A stretch of DNA of 28,213 bases. It comes from a virus. Shown one piece after another: positions 9,546 to 27,388 of the stretch; within the stretch, counting starts at the first letter, position 1; the number at the start of each line of letters is the position of its first letter. Made by a program: the position numbers and the translations under genes. The notes below the pieces were generated by a model. The model saw only the letters and a program-made list of their open reading frames with translations. It was not told where the DNA came from and did no database searches. The stretch lies in IMG/VR virus record IMGVR_UViG_3300042468_001017, positions 1-28,213 of that record. The stretch is one strand, 5' to 3'.

Positions 9546-10316
9546 ATGGCCACCACTGTCCTGTCCGGCACGTCCGGCGCCCTCTACTACAAGCCCGCCG
9601 GCACCACCGGAACCTTCGGTGAAACCGCTGTCAACATCAGCACCGATGTCATCACGGTGCAGCCCTACCTGAACTTCAAGGTCGGCGACCCGGTCAAGTT
9701 CAGCATTGTCAACAGCCAAACCGGCGGCGCTGGCTCTGGCACTCTGCCCGCTCCGATTTCGGATGCCACCACCTACTACGTTCTCAGTTATACCGCTAAC
9801 ACCGGTGCATTGACCGTCTCTACCAGCGCTGGCGGCACAATCCTCGCCATCACCGACGATGGTACGGCCGCTGCCCCCAACGAGTTCCAGGTCGCCTACG
9901 CCGACTTCGCCGTCGTCGGCCAAGTCCGCGACTGGAGCTTCGAGATCAGCCGCCAAGAAATCGACGTCACCACGATCGGCCAAACCCCTGGCCAATACGT
10001 GCCCTTCCGCACCTACATCAGCGGCTTCGGCGATGGCACCGGCACCGCCACGGTCTACATGACCAACGAGGACGCCGCTCTCTCCAACCGGATGATCCAA
10101 GACGTCCTGCAGCGCCAACAAGACGGCGCCGCCTTCAAGCTCTACACCGACCGCGTCTTCAGCGGCGGCACCCTGAGCGAAACCCTCAGCCGCTCGATCT
10201 CCTTCGACGCCGTGCTGACCTCCGCCAGCCTGAACATCAACCCCGACGACGCCCAGTCCGTCACCGTCAACTTCCGCCCCGCTGGCACCCCCACCTTCGA
10301 CTTCAGCCAAAGCTGA
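9546..10316 (+). CDS. Major tail protein (tail tube), with an extra surface-type insert
   Basis: The 256-residue protein forms the tail tube by stacking in rings. The core is recognisable from VVGQVRDWSFEISRQEIDVT near residues 123-142, then TIGQTPGQYVPFRTYISGFG and TATVYMT, as in lambda-like tail tube proteins (W-x-x-x-x-x-x-x-x-x-x-DVT, then G-x-G). Between about residues 36 and 118 lies an additional segment with LNFKVGDPVKF, LPAPI, ATTYYVLSYTANTGALTVST and a Gly-rich turn. This is an Ig-like or beta module of the kind often found decorating tail or fibre proteins. The gene is followed by a UUCG-loop terminator, so it is probably the end of the head/connector transcript. Confidence 0.88.
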   Translation: MATTVLSGTSGALYYKPAGTTGTFGETAVNISTDVITVQPYLNFKVGDPVKFSIVNSQTGGAGSGTLPAPISDATTYYVLSYTANTGALTVSTSAGGTILAITDDGTAAAPNEFQVAYADFAVVGQVRDWSFEISRQEIDVTTIGQTPGQYVPFRTYISGFGDGTGTATVYMTNEDAALSNRMIQDVLQRQQDGAAFKLYTDRVFSGGTLSETLSRSISFDAVLTSASLNINPDDAQSVTVNFRPAGTPTFDFSQS

Positions 10317-10401: not shown

Positions 10402-10743
10402 ATGCCAGTTCCAGTCCGCGCCATCGACCGCCTCCGCAAGGCCGCCAACCTGGAGCCCGTCAAAAAAACCGTCGATCTCTCGGACGGCACCACCTTCGAG
10501 CTGTGGGTCACTCCCCTGACCATGGCCGAGCGCGAACGCGCCCAAAAGCAGGCCAAGTCCGACGACGCCAACGCCTTCGCCCTCCAACTCCTCATCACCA
10601 AAGCCCTCGACGAGTCCGGCACCAAACTTTTTAGCGCTGGCGAGATCGACGTCCTCAAGAACGAAGTCAAGGACAAGGACCTCCAAGCCCTGATGCTGGC
10701 CATCATCACCGACGACGCCGAGCCCATCGACCCAAAGAGCTGA
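10402..10743 (+). CDS. Tail assembly chaperone, lambda gpG-like (zero-frame product)
   Basis: The 113-residue protein begins MPVPVRAIDRLRKAANLEPV and continues with TFELWVTPLTMAERERAQKQ, then DANAFALQLLITKALDESGT and GEIDVLKNEVKDKDLQALML, ending DPKS. It has the helical, charged style of gpG-like tail assembly chaperones, which coat the tape measure protein while the tail tube grows and do not stay in the virion. It sits between the major tail protein and the tape measure, as this pair does in lambda-like phages. A -1 slippery heptamer lies just before its stop, so a minority of ribosomes make the longer GT form. Confidence 0.88.
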   Translation: MPVPVRAIDRLRKAANLEPVKKTVDLSDGTTFELWVTPLTMAERERAQKQAKSDDANAFALQLLITKALDESGTKLFSAGEIDVLKNEVKDKDLQALMLAIITDDAEPIDPKS

Positions 10744-10928
10744 GCGCCGAACTCCGCAAGGACAACTGGCTCATGCTCCAGTTCGGAGTCGCCAAAGAGC
10801 TAGGCAAGTCCCTGCGCGAGGTCCGCGCCTCAATGACCGCCGAAGAACTGATCGGCTGGAGCGCCTACTTCCAGATCCTCAACGAGGACCAGCAGAAAGA
10901 GCTAGACAAAGCTAAACGCCGCCGCTAA
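10402..10928 (+). CDS. Tail assembly chaperone GT-like fusion, made by -1 ribosomal frameshift at 10731-10737
   Basis: Reading 10402-10737 (112 codons) and then slipping back one base, so that translation continues at 10737, joins a 63-residue extension to give a 175-residue product. The extension (ELSAELRKDNWLMLQFGVAK, then REVRASMTAEELIGWSAYFQ, then a basic end) has the typical gpT look, with 'MTAEELIGWSAYF' resembling the conserved W/Y region near the C-terminus of many second tail chaperones. The extension has no good start of its own; its internal ATGs (10773, 10833) would lose the first part. It ends at TAA 10926-10928, inside the terminator stem. The frame relation (-1), slippery site and gene order all fit lambda G-T. 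The listed span includes one base read twice. Confidence 0.85.
10731..10786 (+). promoter_or_regulatory. Programmed -1 frameshift site: slippery heptamer CCCAAAG plus downstream stem
   Basis: In the G frame the bases read C-CCA-AAG (10731-10737), an exact X-XXY-YYZ slippery heptamer. After a -1 shift the two tRNAs re-pair as CCC and AAA. The G stop is at 10741-10743, only 3 bases further on. From 10747, nine bases after the heptamer, CCGAACT (10747-10753) can pair with AGTTCGG (10780-10786), a 7-bp stem with a 26-base loop that could stimulate slippage. Confidence 0.85.
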
Positions 10929-10979: not shown

Positions 10980-13592
10980 GTGGCCAACTACAACGCCAAC
11001 ATCAACATCACTGTTGCTGGTGCATCGCGCCTGAACGCAGTAACAGCATCCGTCGAACGCTTAAATAACTTAAGCCAGAATCTAAAACCACTAAATTTAC
11101 TTGCACCCGGCGGCGGAAAGCTGGGCGACTCAATTCGCCTAGCGATAAAACCGATCAACGATTTTGCTCGCAGCGTACAGAACGGTAACAAACAAGTCTC
11201 CAATACTTTTGCTGGCGCAGTCCAACAAGCAAACGTATTTCGAACCGTTCTAGAAAACGTAAAAGTAGCTGCAGGCGGTTACGAAAAACAGTCTGCGTCA
11301 GTAAAACTATACGCCAGTGCTCTTGCTCAAGCCGAAAAACAGGCTACTCGACTTTCTGCAGCCCAAAATGACCTAGCGCGGACCGCGAAAGGTTTACAGC
11401 CCCAAGCAGAACGCGATCTTGAGTATTACCGTCGTGTAAATGCTATTCAAAGCGGCCGCTTACGCCAACAACGTGAGCTTGCCGCTGCAGAATTTATGCA
11501 GCAAAAAAGAGCAGAAGATTTTGAGCGTCGCTTAGGAATAATCCGCGAACGTAACGCAGCACGAGAAAAGCAACAAGCGAGAACCAGAGAAGCAACAAGT
11601 AATGCGATCATCGGTGGCGCCTTTCCGTTACTGTTTGGCCAAGGCCTAGGCGCATCCGTAGGCGGCGGCCTTGGAGGCTTTGCCGGTGGTCTAGCAGGAG
11701 GTCAGCTGGGTTTTGGTCTATCCCTCGTTGGAACAGCTATCGGCTCTGCTTTAGACCAAACAATCCAGTCAGCCCAAGACTTCGCTAAGTCGATTCGGGC
11801 AGGTGGAGATGCAGCCTCTTACCTAGAGCAACGTCTTGGTTATTTAAATCCAACTATAAAAACACAACTTCAAAATTTACAACAGTCTGGACAAACTGCA
11901 GCGGCTGCCGAACTTGCATTTAAGCAGTTAGCTAATACGATGGGGGAAGAAGGTGCATCCGCTTTTCTTGAAATTGGAAAACAATCTGAACAAACAGCAC
12001 GTTCTTTAGGTATAGTTATAGATAGATTTGTCGGTGCTGGTTTCGCTGTAAATAAATTCTTTCAGGAGGCAAAGTTCGGTAAGGGTCGATCATCACTTGA
12101 TTTACTCCCTCAACAGCTGCGTCCCACACTTACTCCTGCAGCACCGGCAGAAACAGCAGCTGCAACACAACGTACCGCTCAGCTTAACCGTAGTAACGAG
12201 TTGCTGCGTTTACAGGTGCAGTTAACTAGTATCAGCGCTCGTACAGATCTCGAACGTTACGTTACTCTTCAAAGACAAACTGCACAGAAAGAATATGAAA
12301 ACGAACTAACAAAAATTAGCATCCAACTCAAAAATAAGGAAATCAACCTCGCGCAAAACGAACAACTTATCCGTGGTGCAAACTTAAAATTATCCGTACA
12401 GCTAGGCGAAATCGAACGCAACCGTGTTGAGGAACTGGCGCGGCGCCAAGAAGAAGCCCGTCGCGCAGCCGAACAAGCTGCGGATAAAGCTAAACAACAA
12501 GAAGTAAAAAGACTTACACTTGAAAGTAGTATTCTAGGTGTGTATATTGACCAAGTAAAAGCACGTGTAGAACAAGAAAAACTACTTAATGGCGAAGAAG
12601 CAGGCCTAAACGCGCTTTTAAAAGTACAAGATACTATAAACGAAACAGGTTCTGTTGCTTTAGACAAGGAACGTAGAGCAGCGCTACTGGCGGCAGATAC
12701 AGCAGTTGAATACCAACTAATCAACAATCTTTACAGTAGACGAATTGATCTGCTCCAAAGGCAAAATGACATCGAAAAAGAACAAGCTAAAAGACGGCGG
12801 GATCAAATTTTCTTTGAGCGCTTTGGCCTTGTAGACGCAGTAACAACTGCCGGCAAGCGTGCTGGAGAAAGCGCGTTCGGTAATGCACCAGGGGCGGCCG
12901 GCGGCGCCGGAGCTTTCCGCACAGACATCAATTTGATGCCTGGGTTGACCAACGGCGTCATCGGTGAACAGTTTGCACTACTTAAAACTGAACTAGAAGA
13001 ACTTGTAAAAGTTGAAAACCAAGTAATCGAAGCCGCCAAGAGCATCGGCGACGCCTTCGGCACCTCCCTGAAAGGCGTCATCACTGGCACAATGACCGCC
13101 CAAGAAGCACTAGCCAACTTCTTCCAGTCGGTAGCCGATCATTTTGCCGACATGGCAGCCCAGATGATCTCCAAGTGGATCCAGATGCAGATCCTTGGCC
13201 TGGCACAAAGCCTGTTACCCGGCGGAAGCAGCATCTTCCCTAGAGGCGTCGATAACTTCAGCAGTTTCTTCGGTGCTGGCGGCCCTTCCTTCTCAGTAGG
13301 GGCTTTCGGTGGTGCCCGCGCCGCCGGTGGCCCGGTCGCTTCTGGTTCGACCTACATGGTCGGCGAACGCGGCCCCGAACTCTTCGTGCCCTCCAGCAGC
13401 GGCACGATCGTCCCCAACCACATGCTCGGCGGTGGTGCCGTCAACGTCGTCGTAAACGTAGACGCCAAGGGCAGTAAAGTGGAAGGCGACAACGCCAACG
13501 CAAACCAACTGGGACGCGTCATCTCGGCCGCAGTCCAAGCCGAACTCGTCAAGCAACAACGCCCAGGCGGCATCCTCGCCAACACCCGCTGA
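10980..13592 (+). CDS. Tape measure protein
   Basis: At 870 residues this is the tape measure: it sets tail length and later enters the host envelope. With the usual rule of about 0.15 nm per residue it would give a tail of about 130 nm. It has long Ala/Gln/Lys-rich helical stretches (residues about 80-200 and 400-620), a hydrophobic Gly-rich region at about 207-255 (GGAFPLLFGQGLGASVGGGL and onward) that may cross membranes, and a C-terminal motif GGPVASGSTYMVGERGPELF then VPSSSGTIVPN at about 783-805. That last motif is typical of lambda-like tape measures. The GTG start has AGGA upstream. Residues about 20-680 use many A/T-ending codons, unlike the flanks and its own C-terminus, so the gene looks mosaic. 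Confidence 0.94.
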   Translation: MANYNANINITVAGASRLNAVTASVERLNNLSQNLKPLNLLAPGGGKLGDSIRLAIKPINDFARSVQNGNKQVSNTFAGAVQQANVFRTVLENVKVAAGGYEKQSASVKLYASALAQAEKQATRLSAAQNDLARTAKGLQPQAERDLEYYRRVNAIQSGRLRQQRELAAAEFMQQKRAEDFERRLGIIRERNAAREKQQARTREATSNAIIGGAFPLLFGQGLGASVGGGLGGFAGGLAGGQLGFGLSLVGTAIGSALDQTIQSAQDFAKSIRAGGDAASYLEQRLGYLNPTIKTQLQNLQQSGQTAAAAELAFKQLANTMGEEGASAFLEIGKQSEQTARSLGIVIDRFVGAGFAVNKFFQEAKFGKGRSSLDLLPQQLRPTLTPAAPAETAAATQRTAQLNRSNELLRLQVQLTSISARTDLERYVTLQRQTAQKEYENELTKISIQLKNKEINLAQNEQLIRGANLKLSVQLGEIERNRVEELARRQEEARRAAEQAADKAKQQEVKRLTLESSILGVYIDQVKARVEQEKLLNGEEAGLNALLKVQDTINETGSVALDKERRAALLAADTAVEYQLINNLYSRRIDLLQRQNDIEKEQAKRRRDQIFFERFGLVDAVTTAGKRAGESAFGNAPGAAGGAGAFRTDINLMPGLTNGVIGEQFALLKTELEELVKVENQVIEAAKSIGDAFGTSLKGVITGTMTAQEALANFFQSVADHFADMAAQMISKWIQMQILGLAQSLLPGGSSIFPRGVDNFSSFFGAGGPSFSVGAFGGARAAGGPVASGSTYMVGERGPELFVPSSSGTIVPNHMLGGGAVNVVVNVDAKGSKVEGDNANANQLGRVISAAVQAELVKQQRPGGILANTR

Positions 13593-22497: not shown

Positions 22498-22929
22498 ATG
22501 CCCATCACCATCAACGGAACAGGAAGCATCGCAGGGCTAAGTGCCGGAGGGTTGCCTGATGGGTGCGTCACCGCGCCTGACCTTGATGGCGCACAGACTG
22601 GCGCCGCTCCGATCTATGCGGCAAGGGCGTGGGTAAACTTCAACGGGACGGGAACGGTTGCGATCCGTGCCAGTGGCAATGTGAGCAGCATTACGGATAA
22701 CGGAGTGGGGGACTATACGGTTAACTTTACGACGGCTTTGGCGGATGCGAACTACTGCATGACGCATAGCGTCGGAGATACGAGTTCTAACTCGGCGGAT
22801 GACGACGCCGGAGCGCATCCTTTCACCAAAACGTCGTCATCCGCTAGGGTTTATGTGGGTTACGGTAACAGTACTGGCAACATTACTTTTGTTGATTACA
22901 ACCAGATTGACCTTGCCTTTTTTCGTTGA
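22498..22929 (+). CDS. Small tail fibre-like protein, paralogue of the gene at 23981
   Basis: The 142-residue (or slightly longer) product starts MPITINGTGSIAGLSAGGLP, a common leader of small fibre proteins. The middle ARAWVNFNGTGTVAIRASGN then VSSITDNGVGDYTVNFTTAL is a conserved fibre domain. It is nearly repeated in the gene at 23981, with 25 identical bases at 22681-22705 and 24146-24170. The C-terminus (TSSSARVYVGYGNSTGNITF) differs from that copy. The gap to the previous gene is only TC (TGA-TC-ATG). It probably encodes an alternative or accessory tip fibre. Confidence 0.82.
   Translation: MPITINGTGSIAGLSAGGLPDGCVTAPDLDGAQTGAAPIYAARAWVNFNGTGTVAIRASGNVSSITDNGVGDYTVNFTTALADANYCMTHSVGDTSSNSADDDAGAHPFTKTSSSARVYVGYGNSTGNITFVDYNQIDLAFFR
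22681..22705 (+). repeat. 25-base repeat, copy 1, in a fibre gene
   Basis: These bases are identical to 24146-24170. Similarity continues on both sides at lower identity, from about 22625 to 22745, and encodes the shared domain WVNFNGTGTVAIRA then VSSITDNG-GDYTVNF. Confidence 0.85.
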
Positions 22930-23980: not shown

Positions 23981-24409
23981 ATGAGCACCATTGCAGCCAC
24001 CAACCTCAAGAACGCCAGCGCGGGCAGCAACAACATCGTCCTGAACACCGATGGCAGCATCGGCGGCACATGCCTGACGCAGACTTGCCGCGCCTGGGTG
24101 AACTTCAATGGCACCGGCACCGTGGCGATCCGCGCCGGTTACAACGTGAGCAGCATTACGGATAACGGAGCTGGAGACTATACGGTGAACTTCACGTCGG
24201 CGTTGGCAGACGACAGCTATTCCGTATTGGGCAGTGGCCAGGCTGGCGTTCCTGACAACGCTGTGATTTTCAAAATTGTTGGATCATCTGGTTCGGCTCC
24301 GACTACAAAAACAACCAGCGCGGTGCGGATTGGCATTGGTGGCTATGCCAGTGGTACGTCTTACATAGGTACGGATTGCACAAATGTTTCTGTCGCCATC
24401 TTCCGCTAA
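23981..24409 (+). CDS. Small tail fibre-like protein, paralogue of the gene at 22498
   Basis: The 142-residue product begins MSTIAATNLKNASAGSNNIV and then GSIGGTCLTQTCRAWVNFNG, followed by TGTVAIRAGYNVSSITDNGA and GDYTVNFTSALAD. The central domain matches the 22498 gene closely, but N- and C-terminal parts differ, so the two look like the same domain joined to different ends. The start ATG lies in TGATCATG, the same junction sequence as before the 22498 gene. This suggests a modular fibre cassette. The function is probably host binding or tip structure. Confidence 0.82.
   Translation: MSTIAATNLKNASAGSNNIVLNTDGSIGGTCLTQTCRAWVNFNGTGTVAIRAGYNVSSITDNGAGDYTVNFTSALADDSYSVLGSGQAGVPDNAVIFKIVGSSGSAPTTKTTSAVRIGIGGYASGTSYIGTDCTNVSVAIFR
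24146..24170 (+). repeat. 25-base repeat, copy 2, in a fibre gene
   Basis: Identical to 22681-22705. See copy 1. It marks the shared fibre domain of two neighbouring genes. Confidence 0.85.
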
Positions 24410-26070: not shown

Positions 26071-26276
26071 CTCCATTCGCTATTCGCAAACGGCAATTCG
26101 ACGCGGAACTATCCGCCAAACTCGACCACGCCGAGGCTGCCTGGCACGCTAGTCAGCCTCCGGCTATCCCATTGCCCACCGTCGTTGAACACCCCATAGA
26201 TACCGAGCTGCAGACTGGCGACTCCCAGAAGCTCGGCGGACCCATCTCGATCCACGCGCCCTGGAAACGCGAATGA
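26067..26276 (+). CDS. Small protein, 69 aa, with unusual CTG start, coupled to the endolysin
   Basis: A clear open frame reads LTPFAIRKRQFDAELSAKLD then HAEAAWHASQPPAIPLPTVV, EHPIDTELQTGDSQKLGGPI and SIHAPWKRE, ending at TGA 26274-26276 in an ATGA overlap with the endolysin. No ATG, GTG or TTG lies near its 5' end. The likely start is CTG 26067, which forms a CTGA overlap with the previous stop where ATGA would be normal. The N-terminal helix (RKRQFDAELSAKLDHAEAA) and a Pro-rich middle are plausible for a small phage protein, but no family is recognised. It could be a spanin-like or accessory protein only by place. Confidence 0.6.
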   Translation: MTPFAIRKRQFDAELSAKLDHAEAAWHASQPPAIPLPTVVEHPIDTELQTGDSQKLGGPISIHAPWKRE

Positions 26277-27388
26277 CCAGCACCATTCGTCTACTCGACC
26301 TAGCTCGGTTCTACCGATCGCTTCCCCACCAAATGGCGGCTTTAGCCGAGCTGGAGGAAGCGATCAACAAAGCCGACCCCAAGCTACTCAACCGCACCCA
26401 ACCGTGGTTCAAAACCTGGAGCCAGTCCGGCAAGCAACCACCAATCGAAAACAACTGGGACGGCATTGTGATGGCCGGCCGGATTGCCGGCGCCAAATAC
26501 CCAGAACTGGTTGCCGCCCAATGGGCCCTCGAATCTAGCTGGGGCAAACTTGTAACAGGCCGCAACAACTTTTTTGGCCTAAAAGGCGATGGCACCACCA
26601 GCACCACGCAAGAATTTATAAACGGCCAGTGGATCACAATCCGCGACTCATTCCTGCAATTCCCAGACATCCAAACCGCCGTCTGCTATTTAGTTGATCG
26701 CTGGTATAAAGATTACAAAACCTACAAAGGCTGCAACAACGCCACCAGCATCGAAGACGCCGCCCACTGGCTACAAAAAGAAGGCTACGCTACCGATCCC
26801 GATTACGGAAACAAGCTGATAAAGGTAATTAACACCCAAACAGAAAAAACCATAAAAACCAACGAATCTATCCTCAAAGTCCCCTACGAATACCAGCTCG
26901 ACAACAAAAGCGGCACAGGTTACCGCGAGTGCTTCAGCTCCAGCTGTGCAATGGTTGCCCGGTACTGGAAAAAAATCGGCAACGACGACGCCTACAACCT
27001 AATCCGCCGCAAATACGGGGATAGTACAAACGTACACGCCCAAATCGCCGCTTTGAAAGAGCTGGGACTCCGCGCCACGTTCGAGCAAGAAGGCACCGCC
27101 TCCGACCTGGAAGCCGAAATCCGCATGGGCTACCCCACCCCAGTGGGCTGGCTCCATCGCGGCCCAGTCAACAAACCCACTGGTTCAGGCCACTGGAGCG
27201 TGGTGATCGGCTTCACCCCGACCCACTTCCTGCACAACGACCCAAATGGCGATGCCGATTTGGTGAATGGTGGCTATATAAGCAACAAAGGAGGCGCCGG
27301 CGTGGCATACTCCCGAAAAAACTGGCTTCCTCGCTGGCTCGTTGACGGTCCCGACAGCGGCTGGTATCTGAAAATCCGCCCGATGTGA
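26273..27388 (+). CDS. Endolysin with N-terminal GH73-like and C-terminal C39-like peptidase domains
   Basis: The 371-residue protein has two lytic-type domains. Residues about 60-190 resemble a GH73/FlgJ-type glucosaminidase: AAQWALESSWGKLVTGRNNF then FGLKGDG, with E87 as probable catalytic acid; the end is DAAHWLQKEGYATDPDYGNK. Residues about 203-355 resemble a papain-like C39 peptidase: YRECFSSSCAMVARYW with C220, GHWSVVIGF with H307, and HNDPNG with D323. It would cut glycan strands and peptide bridges of the wall at lysis. No signal peptide is seen, so release needs a holin. The ATGA overlap with the previous gene implies coupling. The order in the lysis region supports the role. Confidence 0.88.
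   Translation: MTSTIRLLDLARFYRSLPHQMAALAELEEAINKADPKLLNRTQPWFKTWSQSGKQPPIENNWDGIVMAGRIAGAKYPELVAAQWALESSWGKLVTGRNNFFGLKGDGTTSTTQEFINGQWITIRDSFLQFPDIQTAVCYLVDRWYKDYKTYKGCNNATSIEDAAHWLQKEGYATDPDYGNKLIKVINTQTEKTIKTNESILKVPYEYQLDNKSGTGYRECFSSSCAMVARYWKKIGNDDAYNLIRRKYGDSTNVHAQIAALKELGLRATFEQEGTASDLEAEIRMGYPTPVGWLHRGPVNKPTGSGHWSVVIGFTPTHFLHNDPNGDADLVNGGYISNKGGAGVAYSRKNWLPRWLVDGPDSGWYLKIRPM

Follow-up and report, generated by a model that had tools for sequence, protein, structure and literature searches.

The window analyzed here, the whole stretch of 28,213 nucleotides, spans positions 1 to 28,213 of IMG/VR virus record IMGVR_UViG_3300042468_001017. Two overlapping reading frames in -1 relation, which we term G and T, lie between the genes for its major tail protein and its tape measure protein (Table 1). 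The tail terminator gene is followed by those for the major tail protein, G/T, and the tape measure, and then by genes whose domains resemble those of lambda M, L, K, I, and J; the order in lambda is V-G-T-H-M-L-K-I-J. Farther downstream, the window also contains a small protein in two copies (22498-22929 and 23981-24409), both assigned to the tail-fibre-related PHROG 11355, and a predicted endolysin with a glucosaminidase domain and a C39/C70-like cysteine peptidase domain (26273-27388).

Table 1. Features of the G/T locus and its flanking genes in the window.
Feature	Coordinates	Strand	Basis or remark
Major tail protein (lambda V position)	9546..10316	+	PHROG 158, E 2e-4
G, tail assembly chaperone, 113 aa, normal product	10402..10743	+	PHROG 344, predicted fold
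Slippery heptamer C CCA AAG	10731..10737	+	Sequence, comparison with relatives
T extension, -1 frame, 63 aa	10737..10928	+	PHROG 337, common with lambda T
TGA stop of G	10741..10743	+	Sequence
Candidate stem CCGAACT/AGTTCGG	10747-10753 with 10780-10786	+	Present in window, not conserved
Alternative internal ATG, 51-aa T	10773..10928	+	Not conserved outside close clade
Tape measure protein (lambda H position)	10980..13592	+	PHROG 1538, E 1.3e-15

At the end of G, the 0-frame of the window reads GAC CCA AAG AGC TGA. The -1 frame stays open over 10635-10928, with its final stop at 10926-10928, and the predicted GT product, join(10402..10737, 10737..10928), is 175 amino acids long. An earlier sequence-only reading had placed CCCAAAG three bases 5' of the G stop, at coordinates that proved exact, and our frame check bore out its proposal of a T-like frame in -1 relation to G that reaches 10928. 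The heptamer at 10731 is the sole in-phase canonical heptamer in G. Across the main open reading frames of the window (~7,700 codons), there are 18 in-phase canonical heptamers of any kind, three of them of the CCCAAAR type. At the CCCAAAA copies at positions 555 and 8916 the -1 frame closes after 11 and 15 codons, respectively, while 65 codons are open at 10731.

Both proteins belong to families associated with tail assembly. G matched the tail assembly chaperone family PHROG 344 (E 3.8e-5). We predicted its structure with AlphaFold2 using an alignment from which rows belonging to annotated records were left out (mean pLDDT 79), and the best PDB match of the resulting model was the HK97 chaperone 2OB9 (probability 1.00, E 1.3e-3). 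This model predicts that G has the HK97-type tail assembly chaperone fold of 2OB9, although the two have just 16-18% sequence identity and a TM-score of ~0.5, and a sequence search of the PDB with G gave no match. Window T matched PHROG 337 (E 2e-5), as did 35 of 41 sampled family members and lambda T itself (E 4.7e-7). Direct profile alignment of window T with lambda T was weak (probability 9.6, P 0.003). By virtue of their common PHROG, the T domain of the window is homologous to lambda T.

In lambda, GT is produced by a -1 frameshift at G GGA AAG. The window resembles this system in the position of G/T between the major tail protein and tape measure, the presence of a heptamer near the end of G, a T-homologous extension in the -1 frame, and the M-, L-, K-, I-, and J-like genes that come next. 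It differs from lambda in its heptamer (C CCA AAG), in the length of T (63 amino acids versus 144 as annotated in lambda), and in the sequence of G, which has no detectable similarity to lambda G and for which profile comparison with lambda G found no homology.

To quantify conservation of the slip site, we sampled ~470 IMG/VR loci along with the cultured phages KBS-S-2A, MED4-117/184, S-H1, and S-2L, which were dereplicated at 93% identity to 209 loci. Heptamers were counted within a permitted interval extending from the last -1-frame stop to the G stop, and their expected rate was obtained by synonymous codon resampling with clade codon usage. Each of the 39 dereplicated loci in the window's own clade had T in -1 relation to G; L113, the sole +1 row that our script had assigned to this clade, belongs to a different lineage. 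A canonical X XXY YYZ heptamer was present within the permitted interval in 33 of 39 loci from the window's clade versus ~20% expected, 42 of 42 KBS-S-2A-like loci versus 21% expected, and 34 of 34 S-H1-like loci versus 12% expected, with the caveat that loci share descent and hence are not independent trials. The kind of site varied among CCCAAAG, CCCAAAA, AAAAAAC, and AAAAAAA while slipperiness was retained, and Fitch parsimony on the GT tree counted 17 changes in the type of site. In L036 and L047, for example, an Asp GAT codon abolishes CCCAAA, and the sequence GAT CCA AAA AAC there gives A AAA AAC one codon on. The cultured cyanophage S-2L, whose G is ~37% identical to that of the window, has the same C CCA AAG, which it and three relatives retain despite different flanking residues. 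These comparisons show that the canonical slippery heptamer near the G stop is conserved beyond chance. The sequence-only reading had proposed aligning related phages as a check on CCCAAAG, and the outcome was favorable in that heptamers were kept above expectation in three clades and CCCAAAG itself recurred in S-2L.

In 134 of the 209 dereplicated loci, the T frame opens at most 16 nt 5' of the G stop, and in L015, L036, L047, and KBS-S-2A the -1 frame opens just 10 bases before the stop, around the heptamer. Directly 3' of the G stop, residue conservation was 0.93 in the T frame, compared with 0.82 and 0.81 for the remaining two. A sequencing error or decayed gene could mimic a frameshift, and L002 does contain a single-base indel within G, but hundreds of independent contigs, as well as cultured phages, show the identical G/T split. 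Conservation has thereby already refuted error and decay, to which we assign a negligible probability. We had considered L002 as a natural in-frame G-T fusion and rejected it in favor of the one-base indel.

T might instead be a separate small gene that is initiated at the internal ATG through the upstream AAGGA, with no frameshift. This ATG is found in 37 of 39 close relatives, and the Shine-Dalgarno-like AAGGA lies 10 bases 5' of it. The earlier description of T as having no good start was therefore too strongly worded for the window, where an in-frame ATG would yield 51 amino acids. This ATG sits within conserved T coding sequence, and other clades lack it. The T frame is conserved 5' of the ATG, where change is mainly synonymous and there is no start codon. 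Moreover, ATG, GTG, or TTG precedes the core motif in 0 of 28 loci from the MED4-117-like clade, ATG precedes it in 0 of 34 from the S-H1-like clade, and a separate T start leaves the persistence of the heptamer unexplained. Since MED4-117-like loci lack any start and S-H1-like loci lack ATG, independent initiation is not the family-wide mechanism, and we consider it improbable as the origin of T. Termination-reinitiation at the overlapping CTGA/CTAA, with CTG as the T start, is less credible still. Of 39 relatives, 27 have CTG as the T-frame codon overlapping the G stop, but the other 12 have CTA, which is not a start. S-2L, whose G stop is ~50 nt further downstream and distant from the heptamer, also argues against reinitiation. 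Given that many relatives have a T frame opening just 10-16 bases 5' of the G stop and that a usable T start is missing from some clades, a frameshift is nearly forced in those genomes.

Relatives with an intact T, a separate start, and no slippery site would contradict frameshifting, and our search among relatives encountered none. T has no conserved start of its own even in relatives without a perfect heptamer, which carry CCN AAG AAC, A_AAG, or the +1 junction AAA|AGC. The MED4-117-like clade (L085/L086 and L232-L311) has no X XXY YYZ and instead has an invariant NNA AAG (A_AAG) where the -1 frame opens, present in 28 of 28 loci. A_AAG has been described as a minimal -1 site (PMC5009743). 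Another group (L082, L089-L105, L006, L011, L026, L044, L068, L078, and L118) has T in the -1 frame at a site reading CCN AAG AAC TAR with no canonical heptamer. This group, which includes a close subgroup (L006 and others) as well as the L082 clade, counts against the -1 heptamer reading. A simple C_CCN P-site slip was considered for the CCN AAG AAC group and fails in L104 and L105, because CCT puts TAA in the -1 frame right after CCC.

We also considered whether RNA structure or other elements might stimulate the shift. The sequence-only reading had pointed to a 7-bp stem, which is present at the position given but did not hold up as a conserved stimulator. Across 40 sequences, there was no compensatory change at any pair, two pairs were disrupted (in 12 and 18 sequences), and the stem did no better than its shuffle control. 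RNAalifold did not choose the stem. The stem region itself had z = -0.52, with 56 of 200 shuffles folding equally well, and a longer stretch folded differently. The region 3' of the site folded slightly better than did dinucleotide shuffles (mean z of -1.3, versus approximately -0.2 for upstream regions), and there may be general structure downstream of the site. No Rfam element was found above chance at the slip site, and inspection of ten relatives by eye revealed nothing conserved resembling an upstream Shine-Dalgarno-like stimulator.

Taken together, the sequence evidence makes it very probable that the locus encodes a lambda/HK97-type tail assembly chaperone pair produced via programmed -1 ribosomal frameshifting. 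The G/GT identity, the -1 direction, and the slip site named in the sequence-only reading are each supported by comparative evidence. Regarding how and how often ribosomes slip and what the proteins contact, we infer that most ribosomes would translate G through to its stop, while in a minority tRNA-Pro on CCA and tRNA-Lys on AAG would move back one base onto CCC AAA. The slipped ribosomes would pass the G stop and append the 63 amino acid T domain. By analogy with lambda, many copies of G and few of GT would coat the tape measure protein and T would recruit the major tail protein. C_CCA_AAG is reportedly highly shift-prone in E. coli, and the lambda gpG:gpGT ratio is ~30:1 (PMC5009743). In another tail chaperone cluster, frameshifting was measured at 6-7% (PMC3711429).

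Outside the window, T occupies the +1 frame in three groups. These are the L084 clade (L152-L231; 52 dereplicated loci); L463-L471, which branch within the -1 relatives of KBS-S-2A; and L113/L115, with a G that has 76-77% identity to window G. The +1 junction was AAA|AGC in 55 of 56 dereplicated loci and AAA|AGA in the remaining one. A +1-frame stop (TGA or TAA) directly before AAA|AGC pins the shift point. In the L084 clade, AGC occupied the junction in 51 of 52 loci even though it represents 13% of serine codons there. In these groups, with AGC pending in the A site, tRNA-Lys could move forward and be paired with AAA both before and after the slip. A -2 shift is disfavored, since it would require tRNA-Lys to re-pair on TAA or TGA. 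From these alignments, it is likely that shift direction is evolutionarily labile in this marine/freshwater phage G/T family, being mostly -1 with three separate lineages at +1. The haloarchaeal HCTV and HSTV-2 tail chaperones offer a parallel in that they share this kind of -1 site and include one likely +1 shift (PMC5009743), although their hosts and proteins are different.

Our search of the open-access literature found no report of this slip site in cyanophages. The S-2L gene S2L_44, with C CCA AAG as in the window, and KBS-S-2A gene CPKG_00058, with A AAA AAC, belong to the same G and T families as those of the window, and T is not annotated in either record. More broadly, in the records of KBS-S-2A, MED4-117/184, S-H1, and S-2L (L083 and L085-L088), the T extension is unannotated or, in S-H1, annotated from an internal start. 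T is accordingly missing or mis-started in public annotations of the cultured cyanophages KBS-S-2A, MED4-184, S-H1, and S-2L.

The predicted -1 shift is known lambda-type biology, here in a new phage family, and it extends the G/GT frameshift class by a phage lineage that is both large and abundant. Judging from the comparisons above, the switching of direction would be a more interesting lead than the window's own -1 site. If true, it would define a recurrent bacterial-type +1 site and would imply selection on the fusion only, not on direction. With ~17 slip-site changes and three apparent direction changes in which the fused product was kept, the family constitutes a natural experiment in which the rules that govern bacterial frameshift sites can be tested directly.
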